Assembly (NCBI RefSeq): GCF_020387415.1
Contig: NZ_JAGWCB010000018.1
Location: 248,001 to 312,000 of the forward strand
Source of the DNA: Ideonella benzenivorans
Lineage (GTDB): Bacteria; Pseudomonadota; Gammaproteobacteria; Burkholderiales; Burkholderiaceae_C
Length of the DNA stretch: 64,000 bases
Direction of reading: 5' to 3'
The position numbers and the translations under genes were made by a program. Below, in pieces: positions 50,975 through 62,907 of this stretch. A model generated the notes under the pieces. That model saw only the letters and a program-made list of their open reading frames with translations, made no database searches and was not told the DNA's origin. Position 1 is the first letter of the stretch; each line of letters opens with the position of its first letter.

Positions 50975-52663
50975 TCAGCCCGCAACGCACCCCTCCACGA
51001 CTCGCTCGCCCTCCACTTGGTTGGCGGGCGACTCCTCCTGCCAAAAGCGCAGACCCGGCCCCAAGAACGCAGGTTGCGGCGGCGCCTCGGCAAATGGAAT
51101 CAACACGACATGCTCGTCGTCGCCCTGAAGTCGGACGGCGGCGTGGCTGCCCGGCCAGACCCGAAGCTCCTTGACCACGCGCAGCAGTGCCTGATGGAGC
51201 CGAGCCCGCTCGTCGACCCAAGCCAAAGTCACGTCTTGCACCGCCGCAAGGGCGCGCTCGATAGCTGGAACCAGGTCACCTTCAAAGACGTGGGTAACCG
51301 GGTCGGCCAGCAACGCGGACAGCTTTGCGACCTTCGCCGTCCGCGCATCAACCGATGCCTCAAGCGCGCGAAGCCGACCGGCAATCGCGGTGGACCCGCC
51401 CATGGTTTCCAAGGTGGCCAGCAGGTGGTTAATGGCCTTCTGCTCGCGCAGCAGGGCAGCGCGTTCCTCGCCAAGCTCTTGGCGGGCTTTCTCTCGGGTA
51501 CCGCCCTCCTGGATGTCCGCGGCGATGTAGGTCATCAATGGCCGAATGAGCGAACTCTCCAGCTTGGCCGCGTTCCAGTTCGGGCAGGCCGTGACCCCGC
51601 GGTCGCGATTGGCGCACACATAGAGGGCATAGCCCTCGCTGTTCTTGGGCCCGTTCTTGGACTTGCGGGCCAGCGTCCCGCCGCAGTGGCCGCAGCGCAG
51701 CATTCCCTGGAAGATGTTGTGATACCCGATGTCCCGCCGCTTCGGCAGGTCCACACGGCGGGCCACTGCGGCGTTCGCCTGGTTGAACAGGGCTTCGCTG
51801 ACCACGGCTGGGTAGTAGTTGTGCCACACCTCGCCAGTGGGCACTCGCTGCTTGCCGGCCTTGACTTGCGGCTCGAACTCGCCCAGCACGCGGCGATTGG
51901 CGACCAACTTGCCGGGCAAGGTCTTGTGCCAGTCTGCGGCACGCGCCGGCACAGGCCACCCCTCTCGGTTTGCGATGCGAGCGATGGCCGTGCCGCCGTA
52001 GCCGTTGGCGGTGTACTCGAAGACCTTGCGCACGCTCTCGACCAGCTCGGGAACCGCCTCCCAGCCGTTGCGGGCCTCATTGGGGCGCAGCCAGCCGGGA
52101 CCCTGGCCGAAAGCGAAGGTCGACTTGCTGCGACGTTTCCGGTCGTGGGCCTTCTTGACCCGGTCAGCCTTGGTCTCCGACTCCTCGTTCGCGCGAACGA
52201 AGACCAGCACGGCATACATGACGTTCATCGGCTCCTTCACGGTGTCCTCATCGAGGACGCGGCCATCAATGACCGTCACGACCCGGATGCCCAGCTTCAC
52301 CAGCTTGCCCAGCAGGCTCATGGCGTCCAGAACATCAGACCGCGACAGCCGGTCCAGACTCTCGACGAGCAGATACGAGCCCGGCTCAATGGCACCGGAT
52401 TCGACCGTCTTGATGAACGCGGCCAGGGCGCCGCGGGTCACGTTGCTGCGGTCGAACGCCGAGACGCCCAGGTCCTCGAAAGTGGCTTCCTGCAGGTCGA
52501 GGTCATGCTCGGCGGCGTACCGGCGGCTCTTATCAAGCTGCCGCTGCAGGCTGTCGCCCTTGGCCTGACGCTTGGTCGAGAATCGAACGTAGGAGTAAGC
52601 CTTCGGTCGGACGCCGGTGGCCGAAGTCAGCTCGTTGGTCGTGACAAGGGGGAGGTTGTTCAC
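50975..52663 (-). CDS. Large serine recombinase (integrase of the element)
   Basis: 562 residues. The N-terminal resolvase domain has catalytic S29 in YVRFSTKRQAKGDS and LLVESLDRLSRSD; then the Recombinase domain, a zinc ribbon (CGHCGGTLARK ... CANRDRGVTACPN) and a C-terminal coiled-coil region. Such enzymes join attP and attB across a 2-base core without host factors. I chose GTG 52663, which has taggaa before it, over a further GTG at 52705. It sits next to the right junction, reading inward, as expected for the integrase of this element. Confidence 0.93.
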   Translation of the reverse strand: MNNLPLVTTNELTSATGVRPKAYSYVRFSTKRQAKGDSLQRQLDKSRRYAAEHDLDLQEATFEDLGVSAFDRSNVTRGALAAFIKTVESGAIEPGSYLLVESLDRLSRSDVLDAMSLLGKLVKLGIRVVTVIDGRVLDEDTVKEPMNVMYAVLVFVRANEESETKADRVKKAHDRKRRSKSTFAFGQGPGWLRPNEARNGWEAVPELVESVRKVFEYTANGYGGTAIARIANREGWPVPARAADWHKTLPGKLVANRRVLGEFEPQVKAGKQRVPTGEVWHNYYPAVVSEALFNQANAAVARRVDLPKRRDIGYHNIFQGMLRCGHCGGTLARKSKNGPKNSEGYALYVCANRDRGVTACPNWNAAKLESSLIRPLMTYIAADIQEGGTREKARQELGEERAALLREQKAINHLLATLETMGGSTAIAGRLRALEASVDARTAKVAKLSALLADPVTHVFEGDLVPAIERALAAVQDVTLAWVDERARLHQALLRVVKELRVWPGSHAAVRLQGDDEHVVLIPFAEAPPQPAFLGPGLRFWQEESPANQVEGERVVEGCVAG

Positions 52664-52760
52664 AGCTTCGGTTCCTAAAGAGATGGGGAAGCTGTGAAGC
52701 GACACTGTTTATATGAACGCCCAGCCTTCCGTGGCATCCCTTAAGGTAGCGACCGCGAAA

Positions 52761-54252: not shown

Positions 54253-56403
54253 TCAGCCGCTGACGGGACGGTCCTCGACCAGACGGCCGTCCCGCAGCAC
54301 CAGCACCCGCTGGGCACTGGCGATGGTCTCGGGCCGGTGGGCCACGATGATGCGGGTCAGCTGCAACTGCTGCACCGCTTGGTTGACCTTGCGCTCACGG
54401 TCCACGTCCAGCGCGCTGGTGGCTTCGTCCAGCAGCAGGATGCGCGGGCGCTTGTACAAGGCCCGGGCCAGCAGGATGCGCTGGCGCTGGCCCCCCGACA
54501 GGCTGGTGCCCATGTCGCCCACCAACGTGTCGTAGCCCATGGGCATGGCGCGGATCTCGTCGTCCACCGCCGCCTGACGGGCACAGTCCTCCACCCAGGC
54601 CCGGTCCGGGTCGGGGGCGAAGAAGGCAATGTTGTCGGCGATCGAGCCGGCGAACAGCGGCTCGTCCTGCATCACCGTGCCAATCAGGCTGCGCCAGCGG
54701 GCCCGGCCCAGCCGGCTGAGCGGCAGGCCGTCAATGCGGATCTCGCCCGCCTGCGGGCTGTAGATGCCCAGCAGCAGCTTGAGCAGCGTGGTCTTGCCGC
54801 AGCCCGACGGGCCGGTGATGGCCACGGACTCGCCCGGCGCCACCTCGAAACCAATGTCCTGCAGCACATCGGCCTCCACGTCCGCGTAACGGAAGCCCAG
54901 GCCGTGCACCGTCAGGCGGCCGGCCAGCACGGTACTGGGCGGCAGCGGCGCCCCGCCCTCTTCTTCCGGCGGGGTGCGCACGATGTCGGCTAGGCGCTCG
55001 CCCTGCAGGCGCAGCAGCTGCAACTCGCCGGCCTTGTCGATCAGGGCGCCAAAGCGGGTCGCGAACTGCTCCTGGTAGGCCAGGAAGGCGAACAGCATGC
55101 CGGTGCTGATCTGCTGGTCCATCACCGCCAAGGCGCCCAGCCAGATCACCGCCACCCGCTCCAGGCCGAAGATCAGCCGCTGCCCCACCGACAGCACCAG
55201 CTCGTGGCGGCGCACCACCAGGCTGGCGTTCATCGCCTCCACCACCAGGTTCAGAAAGCGCGACTGGCGCCGGCCCTGGGCATTGAACAGCTTGATCGCC
55301 CCCACGCCGCGCAGCGACTCCAGAAAATGGCTGGACTTGCGGGCCTCGTGCACCAGCGCCTCCTCGGAGGCCTCCCTCATCGGCCGGAACAGCGCCCAGC
55401 GCAGCAGGCCATAGAGCGCCACCGCGCCCACCGCCACGCCGGTCAGCATCGGGCTGTAGAGCACCATCAGCCCCAGCGTCAACAGCACCAGCAGGCCGTC
55501 GATCACCGCCTCGGAGAACTGCATCGACAGCGCATCCTGAATTTGCTGCACCGCAGCAAACCGGGACCACACATCGCCGGTGTGGCGGCGCTCGAACCAC
55601 TCCAGCGGCAGCCGCAGCAAATGGGCGAAGACCTGGCCCAGCCACTGCAGCTTCAGGGTGGAGGACAGGTGCAGCACCGCCCAGGAGCGCGCCGCGGCCG
55701 CCACCGCCTGCAGCAGCACCAGGCCGCCAAAGCCCACCCCCAGTGTGAGCAGCAGGTCCCGGTCGCCGGTGGGCAGCGCGCTGTCCACCACCCATTGCAG
55801 GAAGAACGGCGAGCCCAGCACCAGCAGCTCCAGCGCCAAGGCCAGCAGCAGCACCTGCCCCAGCGCCCGCTTGAGCCCCACCACCCGGCCCATCAGCTCG
55901 CGCAGCCGCACCGGCTGGCGCTCGCGCCGCGGCACGAAGGCGGCGGTGGGGCTGAACTCCAGCGCCACCCCGCTGAAGTGCGGTGACAGCTCGGCCAGCG
56001 TCAGGTGGCGCACGCCGCGCGCCGGGTCCAGCACGGTGGCCACGCCGCGCCGCAGCCCGGCCAGCACCACGAAATGGTTCAGGTCCCAGTGCAGCACCGC
56101 GGGCAGCGCCAGCTGGCCCAGCTGCTCGGGCTCGGCCCGCAGCGCCCGTGGCGCCAGCCCCAGCGCCGCGCCCATCTCGCAGACATCGGCCGCGGTGGCG
56201 CCCTTGAGCGAAATCTGGAAGCGCGTGCGCAGCGTGGGCAGGTCGGTGTCCAGCCCGTGGGCGCCGGCCACCATGGCCAGACAGGCCAGGCCGCACTCGG
56301 CCGCCTCGGTCTGCAGCACCAGCGGCACGCGCCGCCGGCCCCAGCCGGTGCGCAACAAGCCGCGGGCCACGGTCCCAGGGTCCTCAGGGGTCTCGCTCGT
56401 CAT
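54253..56403 (-). CDS. C39-peptidase ABC exporter for double-glycine peptides
   Basis: 716 residues: an N-terminal C39 peptidase with catalytic C37 in LQTEAAECGLACLAM and the His in HWDLNHFVVL, a six-helix membrane domain (about 200-450), and an ABC ATPase with GPSGCGKTT, LSGGQRQR and LLLDEATSALD. Proteins of this type cut leader peptides after GG and export the mature peptide. It starts 10 bases after the HlyD gene and no TolC-like gene is nearby. The substrate is almost certainly the GG peptide at 57912-58070. Confidence 0.95.
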   Translation of the reverse strand: MTSETPEDPGTVARGLLRTGWGRRRVPLVLQTEAAECGLACLAMVAGAHGLDTDLPTLRTRFQISLKGATAADVCEMGAALGLAPRALRAEPEQLGQLALPAVLHWDLNHFVVLAGLRRGVATVLDPARGVRHLTLAELSPHFSGVALEFSPTAAFVPRRERQPVRLRELMGRVVGLKRALGQVLLLALALELLVLGSPFFLQWVVDSALPTGDRDLLLTLGVGFGGLVLLQAVAAAARSWAVLHLSSTLKLQWLGQVFAHLLRLPLEWFERRHTGDVWSRFAAVQQIQDALSMQFSEAVIDGLLVLLTLGLMVLYSPMLTGVAVGAVALYGLLRWALFRPMREASEEALVHEARKSSHFLESLRGVGAIKLFNAQGRRQSRFLNLVVEAMNASLVVRRHELVLSVGQRLIFGLERVAVIWLGALAVMDQQISTGMLFAFLAYQEQFATRFGALIDKAGELQLLRLQGERLADIVRTPPEEEGGAPLPPSTVLAGRLTVHGLGFRYADVEADVLQDIGFEVAPGESVAITGPSGCGKTTLLKLLLGIYSPQAGEIRIDGLPLSRLGRARWRSLIGTVMQDEPLFAGSIADNIAFFAPDPDRAWVEDCARQAAVDDEIRAMPMGYDTLVGDMGTSLSGGQRQRILLARALYKRPRILLLDEATSALDVDRERKVNQAVQQLQLTRIIVAHRPETIASAQRVLVLRDGRLVEDRPVSG

Positions 56404-56413
56404 CGTGGTCCCA

Positions 56414-57676
56414 TCACCAACGCTGGCGCCAGCCCAGCAGCGGCGCAAACACCCATTCGATCAGCCGCCGCTGCTCCAGCAGCACATCCGCCTCCAACTG
56501 CATGCCCGGCTGCAGGGGCTGGGCCTGGGCGCCGGCCGACATGGTCTGCGCCGCCAGGGTGACGACGATGCGGTAGAGCGGCTGCGGCGTGCCGGTCTGC
56601 GCCGGCAACGGCAGCGTGGCCAGCTCGGTGGCCTGGGCCGGGGCGCGGGCCACCTGGCTCACCGTGCCCTGCAGCCAGCCGTACTTCTGATAGGGAAAGG
56701 CCTGCAGGCGCAGGCGCACCGTCTGGCCGGGCCGCACAAAGCCCAGCGCGCTGGACGGCGCATACAGATGCGCCTGCAGCGGCACCCCGGCCGGCCACAG
56801 GCTGGCCATCGCGAACTCGTCGCTGACGGCCTGGCCCGCACCGGCATAGACCGCGGTGATGGTGCCGGACATTGGGGCCGTCACCGGCAGGATGCGGTCG
56901 GCCGCCGCCGGATCGGCACGGGTCGACAGCTCACGGATCTCGTCGCGCTGGCGGGCCAGCGCCTCCAGCTGCTGCGCGGTCTGCAGCGGCAGCTCGCGGG
57001 CCTCGGCCTGCAGGCTGACCAGATCGCGCGCCAGGGCAGCGCGCTGGCGCTGCAGCGAGGCGGCATCGGCGCGCAGCCCCATCACCTCTTCCTGCTTGGC
57101 CTGCACCTGCGCGGTCGAGACGAACTGCTGCCCGGCCAGCGACTCCAGCCGCGCCTGGGCCTGTTCGGCCAACGCCAAGCGCTGCTGGTGGAAGCTCACC
57201 TGCCGATCGAGCTGGGCCAGCTCCCGCTGGGCCGCCTCGATGCGGGAGGCCAGCGACTGCTGCTGGGTGTCGGCCACCCGGCGCGCCTGCTGCGCGGTGG
57301 CCTCCAGGCTCAGCAGACGGGCCTCGAAAGTCTGCTGCAGCTGGCCCTGCGGCACGGTGGCCAGCCGGGGATCGCCCACTGCCAAGGTCATCAGCAGCTG
57401 ACCGGCCTGGACCGTCTGCCCCTCCTGCACGGCCAGGCGCTGCACCCGGGCCACCTGCGGTGGCACGATGCGCACCAAGCCGCCGGCCGGCACCAGCACA
57501 CCGCTGACGACCACCCGCCGGCTGGCCTGCCCCCAGACCAGGAAGGCGCCCAGCGCCAGCAAGGCCGCCACCAGCCCCAGCGTGATCCAGCGCAGCGCCA
57601 CGGGCCGCGTCAGCTGGATGCTGCCCAGCCACTCCCCCTGGCGATGCCGCAAGGCCTCCGGCCGAAACAGGCTCAC
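56414..57676 (-). CDS. HlyD-family periplasmic adaptor
   Basis: 420 residues. One membrane helix (about 26-50, ITLGLVAALLALGAFLVWGQ), a lipoyl half-domain (VPAGGLVRIVPPQVARVQRLAVQEGQTV), a long coiled-coil hairpin (about 110-255) and a beta-barrel part (AHLYAPSSALGFVRPGQTVRL). It links the ABC exporter to an outer-membrane channel. I take GTG 57676 (SLFRPEALRHRQ), the usual start of this subgroup. It precedes the exporter by 10 bases. Confidence 0.92.
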   Translation of the reverse strand: MSLFRPEALRHRQGEWLGSIQLTRPVALRWITLGLVAALLALGAFLVWGQASRRVVVSGVLVPAGGLVRIVPPQVARVQRLAVQEGQTVQAGQLLMTLAVGDPRLATVPQGQLQQTFEARLLSLEATAQQARRVADTQQQSLASRIEAAQRELAQLDRQVSFHQQRLALAEQAQARLESLAGQQFVSTAQVQAKQEEVMGLRADAASLQRQRAALARDLVSLQAEARELPLQTAQQLEALARQRDEIRELSTRADPAAADRILPVTAPMSGTITAVYAGAGQAVSDEFAMASLWPAGVPLQAHLYAPSSALGFVRPGQTVRLRLQAFPYQKYGWLQGTVSQVARAPAQATELATLPLPAQTGTPQPLYRIVVTLAAQTMSAGAQAQPLQPGMQLEADVLLEQRRLIEWVFAPLLGWRQRW

Positions 57677-57765
57677 CCGCACCTCACCCGGCACGGCAGA
57701 ACGACACACGGAGGACGGCGCAACAACAGCATGGCGGCCACATCATAGGGCGAGTCCGCGCGCCC

Positions 57766-57803
57766 AAAAAAAGACGGCGGCCCGGTTTCCCGTGGCCGCC
57801 GTC
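57766..57803 (-). terminator. Terminator between the GG-peptide gene and the exporter genes
   Basis: On the minus strand a 10-bp stem GACGGCGGCC/GGCCGCCGTC (57773-57782 with 57794-57803) is followed by seven Ts (57766-57772). It should end most transcripts of the peptide gene before the HlyD gene. Confidence 0.88.
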
Positions 57804-57911
57804 AAAGGGTCCCAACACGTCCTGTTCTGGACTTGCTTCCCTGATGGTGATTTCAGTGGGATGGCCCTCCCCAGAACCGATCCCGGATGACAGCGTCAGT
57901 GATTCAGTGGA

Positions 57912-58070
57912 TTACCAGCCGCCGCGCGGCGAGTCGGTGGTGTCGGTCAGACCGCCGACCACGGCACGCAGCTGAGCCTGCGACAAGGGCTGCAGCGCGG
58001 CAGCTTGGACGGGCTTGGCACGCAGCGCGCCCAGGGTGTGGCGGACGAGGGTCTTCAGGACTTGCTTCAT
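57912..58070 (-). CDS. Double-glycine leader peptide, predicted 12-residue mature product
   Basis: 52 residues. A basic amphipathic leader ends LSQAQLRAVVGG (29-40), which fits the C39 leader rule (hydrophobic residues at -4, -7, -12 and GG at -2/-1). Cutting after G40 leaves LTDTTDSPRGGW. The ATG at 58070 has cggag before it. The mature part lacks Cys, so no disulfide or lanthionine is expected. It lies between a LuxR solo and the C39 exporter, all on the same strand. A signal or a small bacteriocin is possible; the short size and the regulator favour a signal. Confidence 0.85.
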   Translation of the reverse strand: MKQVLKTLVRHTLGALRAKPVQAAALQPLSQAQLRAVVGGLTDTTDSPRGGW

Positions 58071-58140
58071 GGTGGACTCCGGTTGGCTGGGCGCGTTCAG
58101 CGCATGGAGTCATTGAACCAAGTCCCCCCTTCTGGCGACA

Positions 58141-58156
58141 CTGTCAACTCTTACAG
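58141..58156 (-). promoter_or_regulatory. lux-box-like site before the GG-peptide gene
   Basis: CTGTCAACTCTTACAG (minus strand CTGTAAGAGTTGACAG) has the CTGT-N8-ACAG form of lux boxes. On the minus strand a perfect -35 TTGACA overlaps its end. It lies 71 bases before the peptide start and just after the LuxR gene. Confidence 0.6.
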
Positions 58157-58186
58157 GGGGGAACCTGCCCGAGCGACGTCCTCCGA

Positions 58187-58915
58187 TCAGTGGATCAAGC
58201 CGAGCCGCAGGGCTTTCAGCACCGCCTGGTGCTTGTTGGTGGACTCGAGCTTGTGCATCGCGTTCTGCAGATGCAGTACCGCGGTCCGCTCGCTGATGCC
58301 CAGGATGGTGCCCACCTCCCAGGCGGTCTTGCCCTCCATGGTCCAGCGCAGCGCCTCCAACTCGCGGGGCGTCAGCTTGGGTCGTTCCAGGGCCATCACG
58401 TCGGGCGGCACAAAGAGGCGCAGGGCGGCGTCCTGGGCATGCACCGCGAACAGCTGCAGGTCGGCCACGATGCGGGTCAGGGCCGTCGCATCGGCCGGCA
58501 GGGCCTGATCCCGGTCCACACCCAGCATGAAGTGCCGGCCCTGCGGCAGGTGCATGGCCAGCGCCACCCCGGTGCGGTAGCCGAACGCGGCCTGTTCCTC
58601 CCAGAGCGATTCCACCCCATTGCGGACATAGGTGGCCTGGTCCCACAGGATGGGCACGGTGCCGCGCTTGCAGTGCTGCATCACGGGGTCTTGGCGCCAT
58701 ATTTGGCTGTTCTGGAAACCGTCCTTGTAGGCCCTGGGCGTGTTATCCACCGTGTAGAACTCGGAATGCGCCAGCGACTGGTCGACCACCGTCATCGCCG
58801 ACACGTAGTCAAAGCCGAGGTCGTTCGCGAAGCGAATGACCTCCTGGCGGAAGGCCGCTTCAGTGTCGGCCTGCATGACCGACAAGAAACTGCCATGCAG
58901 CAGGCCCGCGCTCAC
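58187..58915 (-). CDS. LuxR-family regulator with autoinducer-binding domain (LuxR solo)
   Basis: 242 residues. The first 160 have the autoinducer-binding fold (GFDYVSAMTVVDQ, WRQDPVMQHCKRGTVPILWDQ, YRTGVALAMHLPQGRHFML), with Trp and Asp in the usual ligand-pocket places. The GerE helix-turn-helix is at about 178-235 (LTPRELEALRWTMEGKTAWEVGTILGISERTAVLHLQNAMHKL). No luxI-type synthase is in the window. GTG 58915 is the likely start, with gggag before it. It lies directly upstream of a lux-box-like site and the peptide gene, so it probably controls them. Confidence 0.9.
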   Translation of the reverse strand: MSAGLLHGSFLSVMQADTEAAFRQEVIRFANDLGFDYVSAMTVVDQSLAHSEFYTVDNTPRAYKDGFQNSQIWRQDPVMQHCKRGTVPILWDQATYVRNGVESLWEEQAAFGYRTGVALAMHLPQGRHFMLGVDRDQALPADATALTRIVADLQLFAVHAQDAALRLFVPPDVMALERPKLTPRELEALRWTMEGKTAWEVGTILGISERTAVLHLQNAMHKLESTNKHQAVLKALRLGLIH

Positions 58916-59012
58916 GGCGACAACTCCCGCGCGGCGGTGTCACAACGCCGTAAGGCGGCCCTGACAGGTCTTACATCTAGCTCTTGCACGCTGTCCATTC
59001 CAGACTACCGCC

Positions 59013-59444: not shown

Positions 59445-60608
59445 TCACCGCGCCACCACCCGGGCCAGCTGGCGCGCGACATAGACCAGGCATACCAGCG
59501 TCAAGACCACGCTGACCAGCAGCGACACCCCCAGGTCGGCCCAGCCCAGCGGCTCCCCGCGCAGCACACGGTTCATCAGCGTGCTCTGCGCCAGGGCCGG
59601 CACCCACAGGTGCCAGGGCCGCTCGCCGTCCTGGTTGACCATGCTCATCATCGGCAGCAGCGAGACCCCCAGCAGCAGCACGCTGGCACTGGCCTGGGCC
59701 TCCTTGAAGGTCTTGCAGCGGATCGCAATCGCCATCAGCAGGGCCGACAGGCTGCCCGCCAGCGGCAGCAGCACCGCCAGAAAGGCCAGCGCCTCGGGCC
59801 AGCCGTACTGGAAATTGGCCGCCAGGGTCTCGCTGCGCAGCAGCCACTGGCCCGGCAGGAAGCTGAAGCTCGACAGCAAGGCGATCAGCATCGCCACCGC
59901 CGCCACCGCGCCCCATTTGCCCAGCACCAGCGCGCCGCGGCCGGTCGGCGTCATCAGCAGCGGCTCCAGCGAGCCCCGCTCACGCTCGCCGGCCGTGGTG
60001 TCCAGCGCCGCGTTGAGCGCGCCATAGAGCACCGCCATCAGCACGAAGAAGGGCAGCATGCCGGTCAGCCGCAGGGCCCGAGCCGCGGGACTGCCCAGAT
60101 CGCGCGGCTGCACGTCCATCGCCTGCAGCACCGCCGGCGAGACGCCGCGCACCAGCAGCCGCAGCGCCCCCTGCTCGCGGTTGAAGCCCTGCAGCAGCGC
60201 CAGGATGCGTTGCTGACCGCTGTCGGCGCGCGGGTTGTTCGAGGCACTGACCACCTCGACCGTGGGCACCTCGCCCTGGCGCAGCGCGGTCTCGAAGTTC
60301 GGCGGCACCACCACCACCGGGTCCCCCAGCCGGCTCTGCACCAGCTGCTGCGCATAGTCGGCCGGCGCGGCACGCACGGTGTAGGTCTGGCGCGCCAGGT
60401 AGTTGCGCAGCGTGGGCGCCTGGTCGATGCCCTGCACCACCACCACGCGCGCCTCGGCCTGCTGCTCGATGCGGCCCACCAGGGTGGAAATCAGCAGCAG
60501 CACCAGCGGCCCCATGGCCACCGCGCTCAGCAGCACCGTCAGCAGCGTGCGCCGGTCGCGCAGCGCATCCACCCATTCCTTGCGGAACACGGTCCAGGCC
60601 GCCCTCAT
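59445..60608 (-). CDS. ABC-2 type exporter permease (NatB-like)
   Basis: 387 residues. An N-terminal helix (WVDALRDRRTLLTVLLSAVAMGPLVLLLIS) is followed by a large outside domain (about 45-200), then the cluster of five or six helices in the last half. It starts KEWVDALRDRRT, as NatB/CcmB-like permeases do. With the ATPase it would export a lipid, ion or drug; substrate unknown. Its start codon overlaps the ATPase stop by four bases. Confidence 0.9.
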   Translation of the reverse strand: MRAAWTVFRKEWVDALRDRRTLLTVLLSAVAMGPLVLLLISTLVGRIEQQAEARVVVVQGIDQAPTLRNYLARQTYTVRAAPADYAQQLVQSRLGDPVVVVPPNFETALRQGEVPTVEVVSASNNPRADSGQQRILALLQGFNREQGALRLLVRGVSPAVLQAMDVQPRDLGSPAARALRLTGMLPFFVLMAVLYGALNAALDTTAGERERGSLEPLLMTPTGRGALVLGKWGAVAAVAMLIALLSSFSFLPGQWLLRSETLAANFQYGWPEALAFLAVLLPLAGSLSALLMAIAIRCKTFKEAQASASVLLLGVSLLPMMSMVNQDGERPWHLWVPALAQSTLMNRVLRGEPLGWADLGVSLLVSVVLTLVCLVYVARQLARVVAR

Positions 60609-61396
60609 GGCCGGGCCTCCCCGTTCGCCGTATGGGCCGCGGCGCGCTCCTGCGCACTGAAGGCCAGGTCCACGAAGGCCTCCTCGAAGTCGGTCTGACC
60701 GGTGCGCAGCAGCAGCTCGGCCACCGTGCCCTGGGCCACCGTGCACCCGTGCGCGATCACCACCACCTGGTCGCACAGCCGCTCCACCTCCTGCATGATG
60801 TGGGTCGAGAACACGATGCACTTGCCCTCGTCGTCGCGCAGGCGGCGCAGGGCCTCGCGCAGGCTGCGCGTGGCCAGCACGTCCAGGCCATTGGTGGGCT
60901 CGTCCAGGATGATGTTGGGCGGGTTGTGCACCAGGGCCCGGGCCAGCGCGGTCTTCATGCGCTCGCCCTGGCTGAAGCCTTCGGTCCGGCGGTCCAGCAG
61001 CGGGCCCAGGTCCAGCACCCGCGCCAGCTGCTCGGCCCGGGCGGCGGCCTCGGCCAGGGGCAGCCCCTGCAGCCGGCCGTAGTAGACGATGTTCTCGCGC
61101 GCGGTCAGGCGCGGGTACAGGCCGCGCGCATCCGACAGCACGCCCAGCCGGGCCAGGGCGGCACGCGGCGTGCGCGCCACGTCCAGCCCGTCCACCCGCA
61201 CCTGGCCGGCCTCGGGTGGCAGCAAGGCCGCCACGATGCGCAGCGTGGTGGTCTTGCCGGCGCCATTGGGACCCAGCAGGCCGGTGATGGCGCCATCGGC
61301 GGCCTGCCAGCTCACCGACTGCAGCGCCGGCACCGTGCGGCGCTGCCGGCCGGTGCCGGTCTGGAAGGACTTGCTCAGGGCCTCGACCTGGATCAT
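60605..61396 (-). CDS. ABC transporter ATPase (NatA-like)
   Basis: 263 residues: Walker A GPNGAGKTTTLR, signature FSQGERMKTALARALVHNP, Walker B NIILDEPTNGLD, H-loop VFSTHIMQEVERL. The signature reads FSQGE in place of LSGGQ, common in NatA-type ATPases. It lies between the hydrolase and permease genes, with four-base overlaps at both ends, so the three are one operon. Confidence 0.95.
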   Translation of the reverse strand: MIQVEALSKSFQTGTGRQRRTVPALQSVSWQAADGAITGLLGPNGAGKTTTLRIVAALLPPEAGQVRVDGLDVARTPRAALARLGVLSDARGLYPRLTARENIVYYGRLQGLPLAEAAARAEQLARVLDLGPLLDRRTEGFSQGERMKTALARALVHNPPNIILDEPTNGLDVLATRSLREALRRLRDDEGKCIVFSTHIMQEVERLCDQVVVIAHGCTVAQGTVAELLLRTGQTDFEEAFVDLAFSAQERAAAHTANGEARP

Positions 61397-62907
61397 CGCG
61401 CGCCCCCTTCCAGCACCGCTGCCGAGGCGGGCGACAGCGGCCACAGGGCCGGTGGCCGCGGCAGGGCGGCGGCACAGGCCGAATCGCGGCGCGCCTGGGC
61501 CAGGGCCCGGGCGTCCTCGGCTTCGTCCAGGAAGCGGAACACCACATCGCGCAGACAGCCCAGGGCCATCACGCCGTGGCCGGTGTGCGGCACCACCACC
61601 GACAGGGCCTGCGGACCCAGGGCCCGGGCCACCCGCTCGGCCTGGGCCGGCGGCGTGGCCGGGTCCACCGCGCCGGACAGCAGCAGCGCCGGCACCGTCG
61701 AAGGGGGCACCCGGTAGAACGCCGCCGGCACCGTGCCCCGCGGCCAGCCCTGGCAGACGGCGCGGTACAGCCGCGCCTGGGCATCGCCGAAATCGGTCGG
61801 CGGCGCCGCGGCCGCCGTGGCCATGCGCGGCACGTCCTCCGCGCAGACCACCGAGAAATGCATGCCGGTGGCCAGCCCCAGGCCGCGGCCGCCGCCCAGG
61901 GCACCCGCCCCCAGGCCCACCAGGGCCTCGAAGCGGCCTTGTGTGGCCTGCTGCACCGCCAGCGGCAGCGCCGACGCGGTGATCGGCGCATACAGTGGCG
62001 CCAGCACCAAGCTGGCCACCCCGTCGCGGGTCAGGGTGAAGGTCTCCGGCCGACCGGTGAACGGATGGGCCACGGTGATCCGGCGCGGCAGGCTGGCCAG
62101 CAGCGCACGCCACTGTCCGCGCAGGTCCGGGTACATGGCCCGGCAGGCCGGGTCGCGGGCGCAGTCGTCGAACAGGCTGTCCAGCGCCGCCTGAGCCCCG
62201 CGGGCGAAGCTCAGCGGCAGCACCATGTCCGGCGGCGCCACACCATCGAGCACCACGCGCCGCACCTGGCCCGGGAACTGGCGCAGGTACTCCAGCGCCG
62301 CCCGCGTGCCATACGAGGCGCCCACCAGGTTCCAGCGGCGCACGCCCAGGGCCTGGCGCACGGCGTCCAGGTCCTGCATCGCGATGACGGTCGTGAACTG
62401 GCGCAGGTCGCCATCGGGCCGTTTTTCCAGCCTGGCGCGGCAGCGTTGCAGTGCCTGCACCTGTGCGGTGGGGTCGGCCGCCTCGGCCAGGGACCGGTCG
62501 GGCGCATCGTCGTCACAGCGCAGCGGCGCGCTGCGGCCGGTGCCGCGCTGATCGACCAGGATCACATCGCGCCGGTTCAGCGTGCGGGCCATCATCTGCG
62601 CGATCGGCCCGGCCAGCTCGATGGCGCTCTGCCCCGGCCCGCCGGCCAGGAACACCACCGGGTCGGGCTGGCGTCGGCGCGCCACGGCTGGCAGCACCGC
62701 CACCTGCAGGTCGATCTGCGCGCCCTGCGGCCGGGTCGGGTCCAGCGGGCGGCGCAGCACGCCGCACCGGGCATCCACCTCCACCCCCTTGAGCCGGCAG
62801 GTCGACAGCGTCAACACGGGCGCCGCGTCGGCCGGGGTGGCGGCACGCGCCAGGCCCCCCACCGCCATCAGCCCCCCCATGCACAGCCCAGCCCACATGC
62901 GCCGCAT
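61393..62907 (-). CDS. TAP-like secreted alpha/beta hydrolase
   Basis: 504 residues with a signal peptide (MWAGLCMGGLMAVGGLARA). The hydrolase fold shows VVFLAGGPGQSA (oxyanion), nucleophile in VGASYGTR, Asp in GAVDPATPPAQ and His in VVPHTGHGVMAL. Proteins of the TAP family cut tripeptides or beta-lactam-like substrates. Its stop overlaps the ATPase start, so it heads the transporter operon. The start could also be nine bases further in. Confidence 0.88.
   Translation of the reverse strand: MRRMWAGLCMGGLMAVGGLARAATPADAAPVLTLSTCRLKGVEVDARCGVLRRPLDPTRPQGAQIDLQVAVLPAVARRRQPDPVVFLAGGPGQSAIELAGPIAQMMARTLNRRDVILVDQRGTGRSAPLRCDDDAPDRSLAEAADPTAQVQALQRCRARLEKRPDGDLRQFTTVIAMQDLDAVRQALGVRRWNLVGASYGTRAALEYLRQFPGQVRRVVLDGVAPPDMVLPLSFARGAQAALDSLFDDCARDPACRAMYPDLRGQWRALLASLPRRITVAHPFTGRPETFTLTRDGVASLVLAPLYAPITASALPLAVQQATQGRFEALVGLGAGALGGGRGLGLATGMHFSVVCAEDVPRMATAAAAPPTDFGDAQARLYRAVCQGWPRGTVPAAFYRVPPSTVPALLLSGAVDPATPPAQAERVARALGPQALSVVVPHTGHGVMALGCLRDVVFRFLDEAEDARALAQARRDSACAAALPRPPALWPLSPASAAVLEGGAR

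Follow-up and report, generated by a model that had tools for sequence, protein, structure and literature searches.

Can a LuxR-type receptor answer to a ribosomally made peptide encoded beside it? This question is raised by a locus on the minus strand of the Ideonella benzenivorans DNA analysed here (the window, a stretch of 64,000 nucleotides that is part of a 4.49-Mb genome). The original prediction, made from the DNA letters alone, had read along this strand a luxR gene, a lux-box-like site, a double-glycine (GG) peptide gene, an HlyD adaptor gene and a C39 exporter gene, and had proposed that they form a peptide-signalling system. All five are present in that order, and the proposal is supported both by the conserved linkage of the parts and by covariation between the peptide and the autoinducer pocket of the receptor. 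From sequence comparison we consider it likely that the locus encodes a pheromone system in which a gene-encoded peptide is read by a LuxR-type receptor: the adjacent LuxR very probably has this peptide as its ligand, and the peptide likely acts as a secreted pheromone that is probably autoinducing. The argument uses the following features, one of them an open reading frame (ORF) for the precursor peptide.

58187..58915, minus strand: luxR, encoding a cytoplasmic protein with Autoind_bind (Pfam, 2e-23) and GerE (5e-15) domains, the proposed peptide receptor
58141..58156, minus strand: lux/cep-type box CTGTAAGAGTTGACAG in the peptide–exporter promoter, from a pattern match and the T..AAT geometry
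57912..58070, minus strand: precursor peptide gene of the double-glycine type, an ORF of 52 aa with GG at residues 39–40 and the C-terminus LTDTTDSPRGGW
57915..57950, minus strand: predicted product after the GG cut, LTDTTDSPRGGW, the cut being placed by the C39/GG rule
57915..57932, minus strand: core hexapeptide SPRGGW (xPxxxW), the proposed pheromone unit, from conservation and covariation
56414..57709, minus strand: HlyD-family periplasmic adaptor (Pfam); a GTG start at 57676 is more likely, as homologues start near SLFRPEAL-like stretches
54253..56403, minus strand: C39-peptidase ABC exporter (Peptidase_C39 1e-29, ABC_membrane, ABC_tran)

The arrangement is kept among relatives. From 577 confirmed loci of an exporter search we fetched the best 80, among which the closest two exporters are from Ideonella (90–92% identical) and 46 loci carry, upstream of HlyD and the exporter, a LuxR that is 58–88% identical to that of the window (about 2 kb separates it from HlyD and the exporter in L015). 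In relatives, a small ORF with a GG-type leader and a hypervariable end sits between luxR and hlyD. Several of the remaining fetched loci are short contigs, and most of L056–L082 are related exporters without this LuxR (L063 and L065 do carry it, and L059 and L064 are short contigs). In the family, 102 of 399 genomes have a LuxR match at E<=1e-50. Among the doubts raised with the original prediction were that the small gene and its C-terminal residues might not be conserved, or that the LuxR might be linked to other genes elsewhere; both the small gene and those residues are kept next to luxR in many genera.

Our peptide statistics refer to receptors at least 57% identical to the window LuxR, plus that of L099; the score used to pick peptide genes favours P...W, and the precursors of L041 and L195 are ORFs chosen by hand. 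The pattern xPxxxW is present in 65 of the 70 clade-1 receptor–precursor pairs, in precursors that are otherwise hypervariable, with Trp among the last four residues in 64 of the 70 and with 50 distinct cores. Two to five copies of the core occur in 21 precursors, and all copies are identical in 17 of these (e.g. LPRGTW four times in L053 and GPNGGW five times in L136). Because copies inside one precursor mostly match while cores vary between species, the hexapeptide appears to be the selected unit. Rows fetched later have the core in 29 of 33 cases and identical copies in 8 of 9 multicopy precursors. Of the 12-residue mature product predicted earlier, the ORF, the GG pair and the end LTDTTDSPRGGW are borne out, but conservation covers its final six residues, SPRGGW, rather than the full 12-mer. 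Shuffle controls rule out a chance small ORF: in 62 of 69 relatives luxR is followed by an ORF whose end is near P...W, whereas 20 sets of dinucleotide shuffles average 1.9 and reach 4 at most. The window precursor scores above the cut-off of no Pfam or NCBIfam model.

Evidence that the peptide meets this receptor comes from covariation across 94 pairs, all with xPxxxW, of which 65 served for training and 29 were new; 24 of 89 new LuxR rows had been dropped as near-identical to earlier ones, and L313, whose ORF is doubtful, is excluded from the combined set. One pocket definition, fixed beforehand, comprises 27 positions that we take to line the LasR pocket. The other is a set of 16 positions published for LuxR structures (PMC3821632, in excerpt), 10 of them variable in this set. 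Given the rest of the ligand domain, the LasR list follows the distance between peptide cores (r = 0.296, 0 of 2000 permutations), whereas the rest of the ligand domain given the pocket does not (r = 0.006, 869 of 2000), nor does the DNA-binding domain (r = 0.055, 363 of 2000). The published pocket yields r = 0.226, a value that 22 of 2000 random position sets of matched entropy also attain, and r = 0.256 after dereplication (n = 39, 0 of 2000). For the 29 new pairs it yields r = 0.300 (11 of 2000), with 0.340 (0 of 2000) for the LasR list, and for the combined 94 pairs r = 0.263 (0 of 2000). The random-set control, dereplication and hold-out argue against phylogeny alone as an explanation.

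The strongest single links fall at or beside pocket positions: core residue 1 with receptor residue 118; core 3 with 72, 104, 79 and 63; core 4 with 67, 59 and 55; and core 5 with 73. Enrichment of the pocket over the domain is clear for core 3 (p = 0.0003) and core 4 (p = 0.003) and marginal for core 1 (p = 0.07). At residue 73, which corresponds to LasR A70, a bulky side chain goes with Gly at core 5 in 35 of 35 pairs, and Gly73 goes with a residue other than Gly (Thr, Ser, Asn and the like) in 33 of 33. Among new rows fetched once this rule was fixed, all 9 bulky and all 14 Gly receptors obey it (22 of 22 without L313), a further seven having other residues at 73. A basic residue 104 is never accompanied by Lys or Arg at core 3 (0 of 18), as compared to 57 of 76 for other receptors. 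On a tree built with the pocket columns left out, the class of residue 73 changes at least 13 times and all 46 bulky or Gly rows fit the rule; the best tree provides 13 independent pairs, all concordant. Two close comparisons illustrate the point. The receptors of L130 and L132 are 85% identical and differ among 11 pocket positions only at 73 (G/R), with cores APKSTW and APKSGW; those of L190 and L063 are 88% identical and differ at 63, 64, 72 and 73 (G/M at the last), with cores APKNTW and APRNGW. Given this covariation between peptide and pocket, it is very probable that the LuxR pocket binds the hexapeptide.

The receptor itself has the LuxR fold with a modified pocket. The window genome has a single PF03472 match, the window LuxR, whose AlphaFold2 model has a predicted local distance difference test (pLDDT) score of 90.4 and finds its nearest solved folds in QscR, RhlR, SdiA, LasR, TraR, CviR and CepR2. 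The conserved pocket for acyl-homoserine lactones (AHLs), in TraR numbering, is W57, Y61, D70, P71, W85 and G113 (PMC3821632, in excerpt); the window LuxR has Y, F, D, P, W and G at these positions and so does not carry the AHL signature. Among the 94 pairs, the LasR W60 position is Y or F in 83 and W in 6, and none has an aromatic residue where LasR has Y56. The family shares a conserved stretch near PEGRHF..GVDRD that is not seen in aligned LasR and QscR. The earlier statement that there is no luxI holds as far as searched: PF00765 has no match in the window genome, while the positive genome G049 scores 2e-28, and 28 of 33 searched genomes with this LuxR family (of 43 found) likewise have no match.

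In L177:5139-8918 (G066), L178:5034-9400 (G096) and L312–L314, a precursor gene is accompanied by an array of LuxR paralogues, up to five in tandem and about 50–63% identical to the window's. The extra receptors of such arrays may detect foreign peptides.

A second form of the locus dispenses with the leader. Among 34 cases in which the receptor is 39–49% identical to the window's, 22 have a tiny leaderless ORF after luxR, defined by an ATG with a plausible ribosome site soon after luxR, a length of at most 40 codons, and an end of xP-[RKTYIN]-x-G plus at most 10 residues. The ORFs found have 9–24 codons; 50 shuffled sets yielded a mean of 0.16 and a maximum of 1. Examples are MICLPRVGW (L288), MYLIDLIYEVLGVPRFGG (L287) and MQHPTNQAPGFPRVGF (L180), the last locus having two leaderless ORFs with an identical FPRVGF end, of which the second is MTSFPRVGF. 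Similar ORFs outside the strict pattern occur in L289, L291 and L294, and L299 reads likewise in DNA. No HlyD match was found in nine leaderless loci (L179–L187) read over 4–8.5 kb; about 1.7 kb was fetched for each later one. The leader is likewise absent from a few closer relatives (L142, L168, L242, L253, with MQVLLPRNAW, and L283). Since these loci keep a related end, the linkage of motif and luxR outlives loss of the leader. In 300 order-level genomes, a clade-2 receptor matched at E<=1e-35 only three times, in the window genome, in G091 and in G260, the last belonging to another family and being 34% identical. Loci L302 and L307 (G460 and G540) show a different arrangement: behind a LuxR 39–43% identical to the window's come GG-leader precursors with the end GPLPGW or PPPPTWPTW, which may be a third type of peptide.

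The lux-box-like site of the original prediction proved real, at 58141–58156. Within the window, nothing but its sequence CTGTAAGAGTTGACAG matches CTGT[AC]AGANNTGACAG exactly, and the window genome holds no other 0-mismatch site for CCTGTAAGANNTGACAGT. In 66 of 69 clade-1 loci the box pattern falls in the gap from luxR to the precursor gene. Counted from the start of the box, a T..AAT hexamer comes at 39 nt in 65 of these 66 and at 40 nt in the other, a spacing that would put the box centre near -42.5. Promoters activated by LuxR proteins have their box centred near -42.5. ZmpA is a zinc metalloprotease. A cep box is found at zmpA as well as at cepI, whose published site CTGTAAGAGTTACCAG is closely matched by the window box (PMC1766932, in part). 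A second, weaker lux-type box lies upstream of luxR:

58961..58976, minus strand: ATGTAAGACCTGTCAG, two mismatches, from a mismatch scan

At up to three mismatches such an upstream box is present in 58 of 69 relatives, compared to 0 of 69 once-shuffled controls, which suggests autoregulation of luxR. Of 150 family genomes, 43 have a LuxR match (E<=1e-20) and 107 do not; the exact box is present in 27 of the former and 7 of the latter, an overlap tallied by hand, and the reversed pattern in 2 of the 150.

Two further exact boxes in the window genome precede a gene for a thermolysin-type M4 protease (L093:6361-8070), presumably secreted, and an OGDH-E1-like gene (L092:6535-9291) that adjoins a chemoreceptor-like gene. 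At the protease gene the exact-match strand is opposite to the gene, the site being nearly palindromic. Among 16 genomes of the genus, the protease box is kept in G445 and G449, where the proteases are 90% and 84% identical, so that three genomes of the genus have a box near M4 protease genes; the box of the OGDH-E1-like gene is kept in G449 and G450. Perhaps, then, M4 proteases are under the control of the peptide–LuxR system. G013, of another genus, also has a box before an M4 protease gene, but as it has LuxI genes too, this box may belong to another LuxR. Genomes without this LuxR have the box as well, so it is not exclusive to the system: in G049 it lies between a luxR-like gene (recognized by eye) and luxI. 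In G099, which lacks this LuxR clade, a box stands before a CqsA-like aminotransferase gene, also recognized by eye (L167 around 2998).

The circuit that we propose would run as follows. The precursor would be cut after the double glycine and exported by the C39-ABC/HlyD pump, and further trimming would give the hexapeptide. SPRGGW would then re-enter cells, possibly through general oligopeptide uptake, which is plausible in view of six SBP_bac_5 (oligopeptide-binding type) matches in the window genome. Inside, it would bind the autoinducer pocket, the AHL site of other LuxR proteins, as the covariation supports. Loaded LuxR would bind the cep/lux-type boxes at about -42.5 and activate the peptide–exporter operon, probably luxR itself and perhaps the M4 protease genes. 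The fit of receptor and peptide would set the dialect of a species, and the outcome would be a positive-feedback circuit with RRNPP-like logic on a LuxR scaffold.

Several observations weigh against this proposal. The AHL-pocket Asp (LasR D73, kept in 92 of 94) and Trp (LasR W88) are retained; LuxI hits occur in 5 of the 33 searched genomes (3 strong, 2 weak and partial); and a buried LuxR pocket would have to take a hexapeptide, a larger ligand than an AHL. The locus has no dedicated importer, 5 of the 70 clade-1 precursors lack xPxxxW, the spacers between core copies show no obvious processing site, and the 7 of 107 genomes noted above have an exact box without this LuxR. Core 5 has no general pocket enrichment beyond residue 73 (p = 0.66), and the rule for residue 73 leaves aside 26 of the 94 pairs, which have Cys, Ala, Ser, Asn or Gln there; C73 (4 Arg, 1 Gly) and A73 (7 Gly, 6 other) fit no simple size rule. 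On strongly supported branches there are only 1 to 5 independent pairs, not enough for significance: residue 73 has 3 and 4, residue 118 has 1, and residue 104 has 5, with an average of 2.3 differing as expected and none in the opposite sense.

The alternative that survives best, in our view still unlikely, is that the peptide binds LuxR inside the producing cell as a folding cofactor or timer, export removing the excess, with no signalling between cells. The missing importer would suit it, and leaderless forms of 9–20 codons (as in L288, L253 and L142) could work in the cytoplasm. Yet most clade-1 precursors have a GG leader and a dedicated C39 exporter next to them, Gram-positive pheromones of comparable size leave the cell without such a leader, and fast divergence with receptor matching resembles signalling specificity.

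Markedly less probable is that a LuxR solo eavesdropping on AHLs induces an operon for a bacteriocin or for some other bioactive peptide that is exported. Some of the related exporters among L056–L082 do adjoin other GG peptides without this LuxR, and both the likeness to the cepI box and the kept pocket Asp and second Trp agree with such a history. Covariation with the pocket, however, is not expected of a bystander peptide, the repeats are short and hydrophilic, the lactone-contacting Trp and Tyr are mostly replaced, and 28 of the 33 genomes have no LuxI. An immunity gene was not noted in the interval from luxR to the exporter, where no systematic search was made. The locus resembles class II microcins and bacteriocins with CvaAB-like export in its GG leader (cleavage predicted), C39 ABC exporter and HlyD adaptor, and differs from them in the tiny hydrophilic xPxxxW repeats, the dedicated LuxR and the pocket covariation. 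A plain class II bacteriocin is rejected, as it leaves that covariation unexplained.

Least credible of all is that shared ancestry or the choice of peptide genes produces a spurious covariation, with the peptide acting on another receptor: the picking score did favour P...W, related species share both genes, and residue 73, chosen from a position scan, has as few as 3 independent pairs on strongly supported branches, but entropy-matched positions outside the pocket share the same ancestry mostly without signal, the DNA-binding domain has none, all 22 newly classified pairs obey the rule, and the effects are physically sensible in sign and size.

Returning to the pheromone system that we favour, its logic can be compared to known ones. 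The RRNPP systems of Firmicutes (Rgg-SHP, ComR-XIP and PlcR-PapR) have a cytoplasmic regulator beside a tiny pheromone gene, whose short product is exported, taken up again and bound in the cytoplasm, with positive feedback. The present loci share the cytoplasmic regulator next to a tiny peptide gene and the co-divergence of receptor and peptide, and the clade-2 precursors resemble SHP and ComS in size and layout; the receptor, unlike theirs, is a LuxR and not a tetratricopeptide repeat (TPR) protein, the host is Gram-negative, and clade 1 uses a GG leader with a C39-ABC/HlyD exporter. Several identical short pheromone copies in one precursor recall, by analogy, yeast alpha-factor-type precursors, which are unrelated proteins from another domain of life.

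Among LuxR proteins, the Autoind_bind and GerE architecture and the box near -42.5 are those of LuxI/LuxR AHL quorum sensing, and a cognate LuxI is what the locus lacks. CepIR-type systems of Burkholderia share the fold, the domains and a near-identical box; here, by contrast, the window genome has no LuxI hit, the lactone Trp and Tyr are replaced, and the proposed ligand is a ribosomal peptide encoded beside the receptor. The OryR/PipR solos sense exogenous plant compounds, HEHEAA in the case of PipR (PMC10134790, in part); PipR also responds weakly, at about 1 mM or more, to Ser-His-Ser and needs a peptide ABC importer for this (PMC4981722, in part). Likeness extends to peptide-like inducers, here proposed, and to nearby peptidase genes, here a candidate, but the portions of those accounts that we cite show no encoded peptide, and the W57 position is here mostly Y or F. 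A solo of the plant-associated bacteria (PAB) type is rejected, as the OryR/PipR pocket signature is W57M/Y61W (PMC3821632, in excerpt) and the window LuxR has Y63 and F67. The cited part of a review of LuxR solos describes no subgroup with an adjacent peptide and exporter (PMC10134790). We found no comparable system in the open-access literature that we searched; prior work may exist in subscription papers or preprints.

Taken together, we judge it probable that in a group of Burkholderiales LuxR receptors, a family known mainly for small signals derived from fatty acids, have switched from AHLs to ribosomal hexapeptides, which would provide these Gram-negatives with a gene-encoded signal free to diversify, with dialects set by matched pocket and peptide residues, in two forms (GG-led, C39-exported tandem copies and leaderless genes down to 9 codons) and with arrays of up to five receptors that may hear foreign dialects: a new kind of quorum sensing. 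If the reading is true, the LuxR pocket is programmable by a gene-encoded peptide, so that signal and receptor specificity could be read, predicted and swapped from sequence; the textbook split between small molecules in Gram-negatives and peptides in Gram-positives would be broken; and a set of LuxR solos would gain their ligands, and the evolution of signal dialects would have a clean system for its study.

Upstream of luxR lie three conserved neighbours, counted over 54 loci, several of which end early at contig ends.

59445..60635, minus strand: ABC-2 permease, NatB-like (Pfam; 31 of 54 loci)
60605..61330, minus strand: ABC ATPase, NatA-like (Pfam; 31 of 54 loci)
61393..62889, minus strand: TAP-like alpha/beta hydrolase, S33-type, a candidate peptidase (Pfam Abhydrolase_1, TAP-like; 29 of 54 loci)

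A proline iminopeptidase is the neighbour of OryR/PipR; the hydrolase here, predicted as TAP-like, is third upstream, after the NatAB-like genes. It is a matter of speculation that these genes could trim, degrade or move the signal. Downstream of the locus, at window positions 50975-52705 on the minus strand, is a gene for a large serine recombinase (Resolvase, Recombinase and Zn_ribbon_recom domains).

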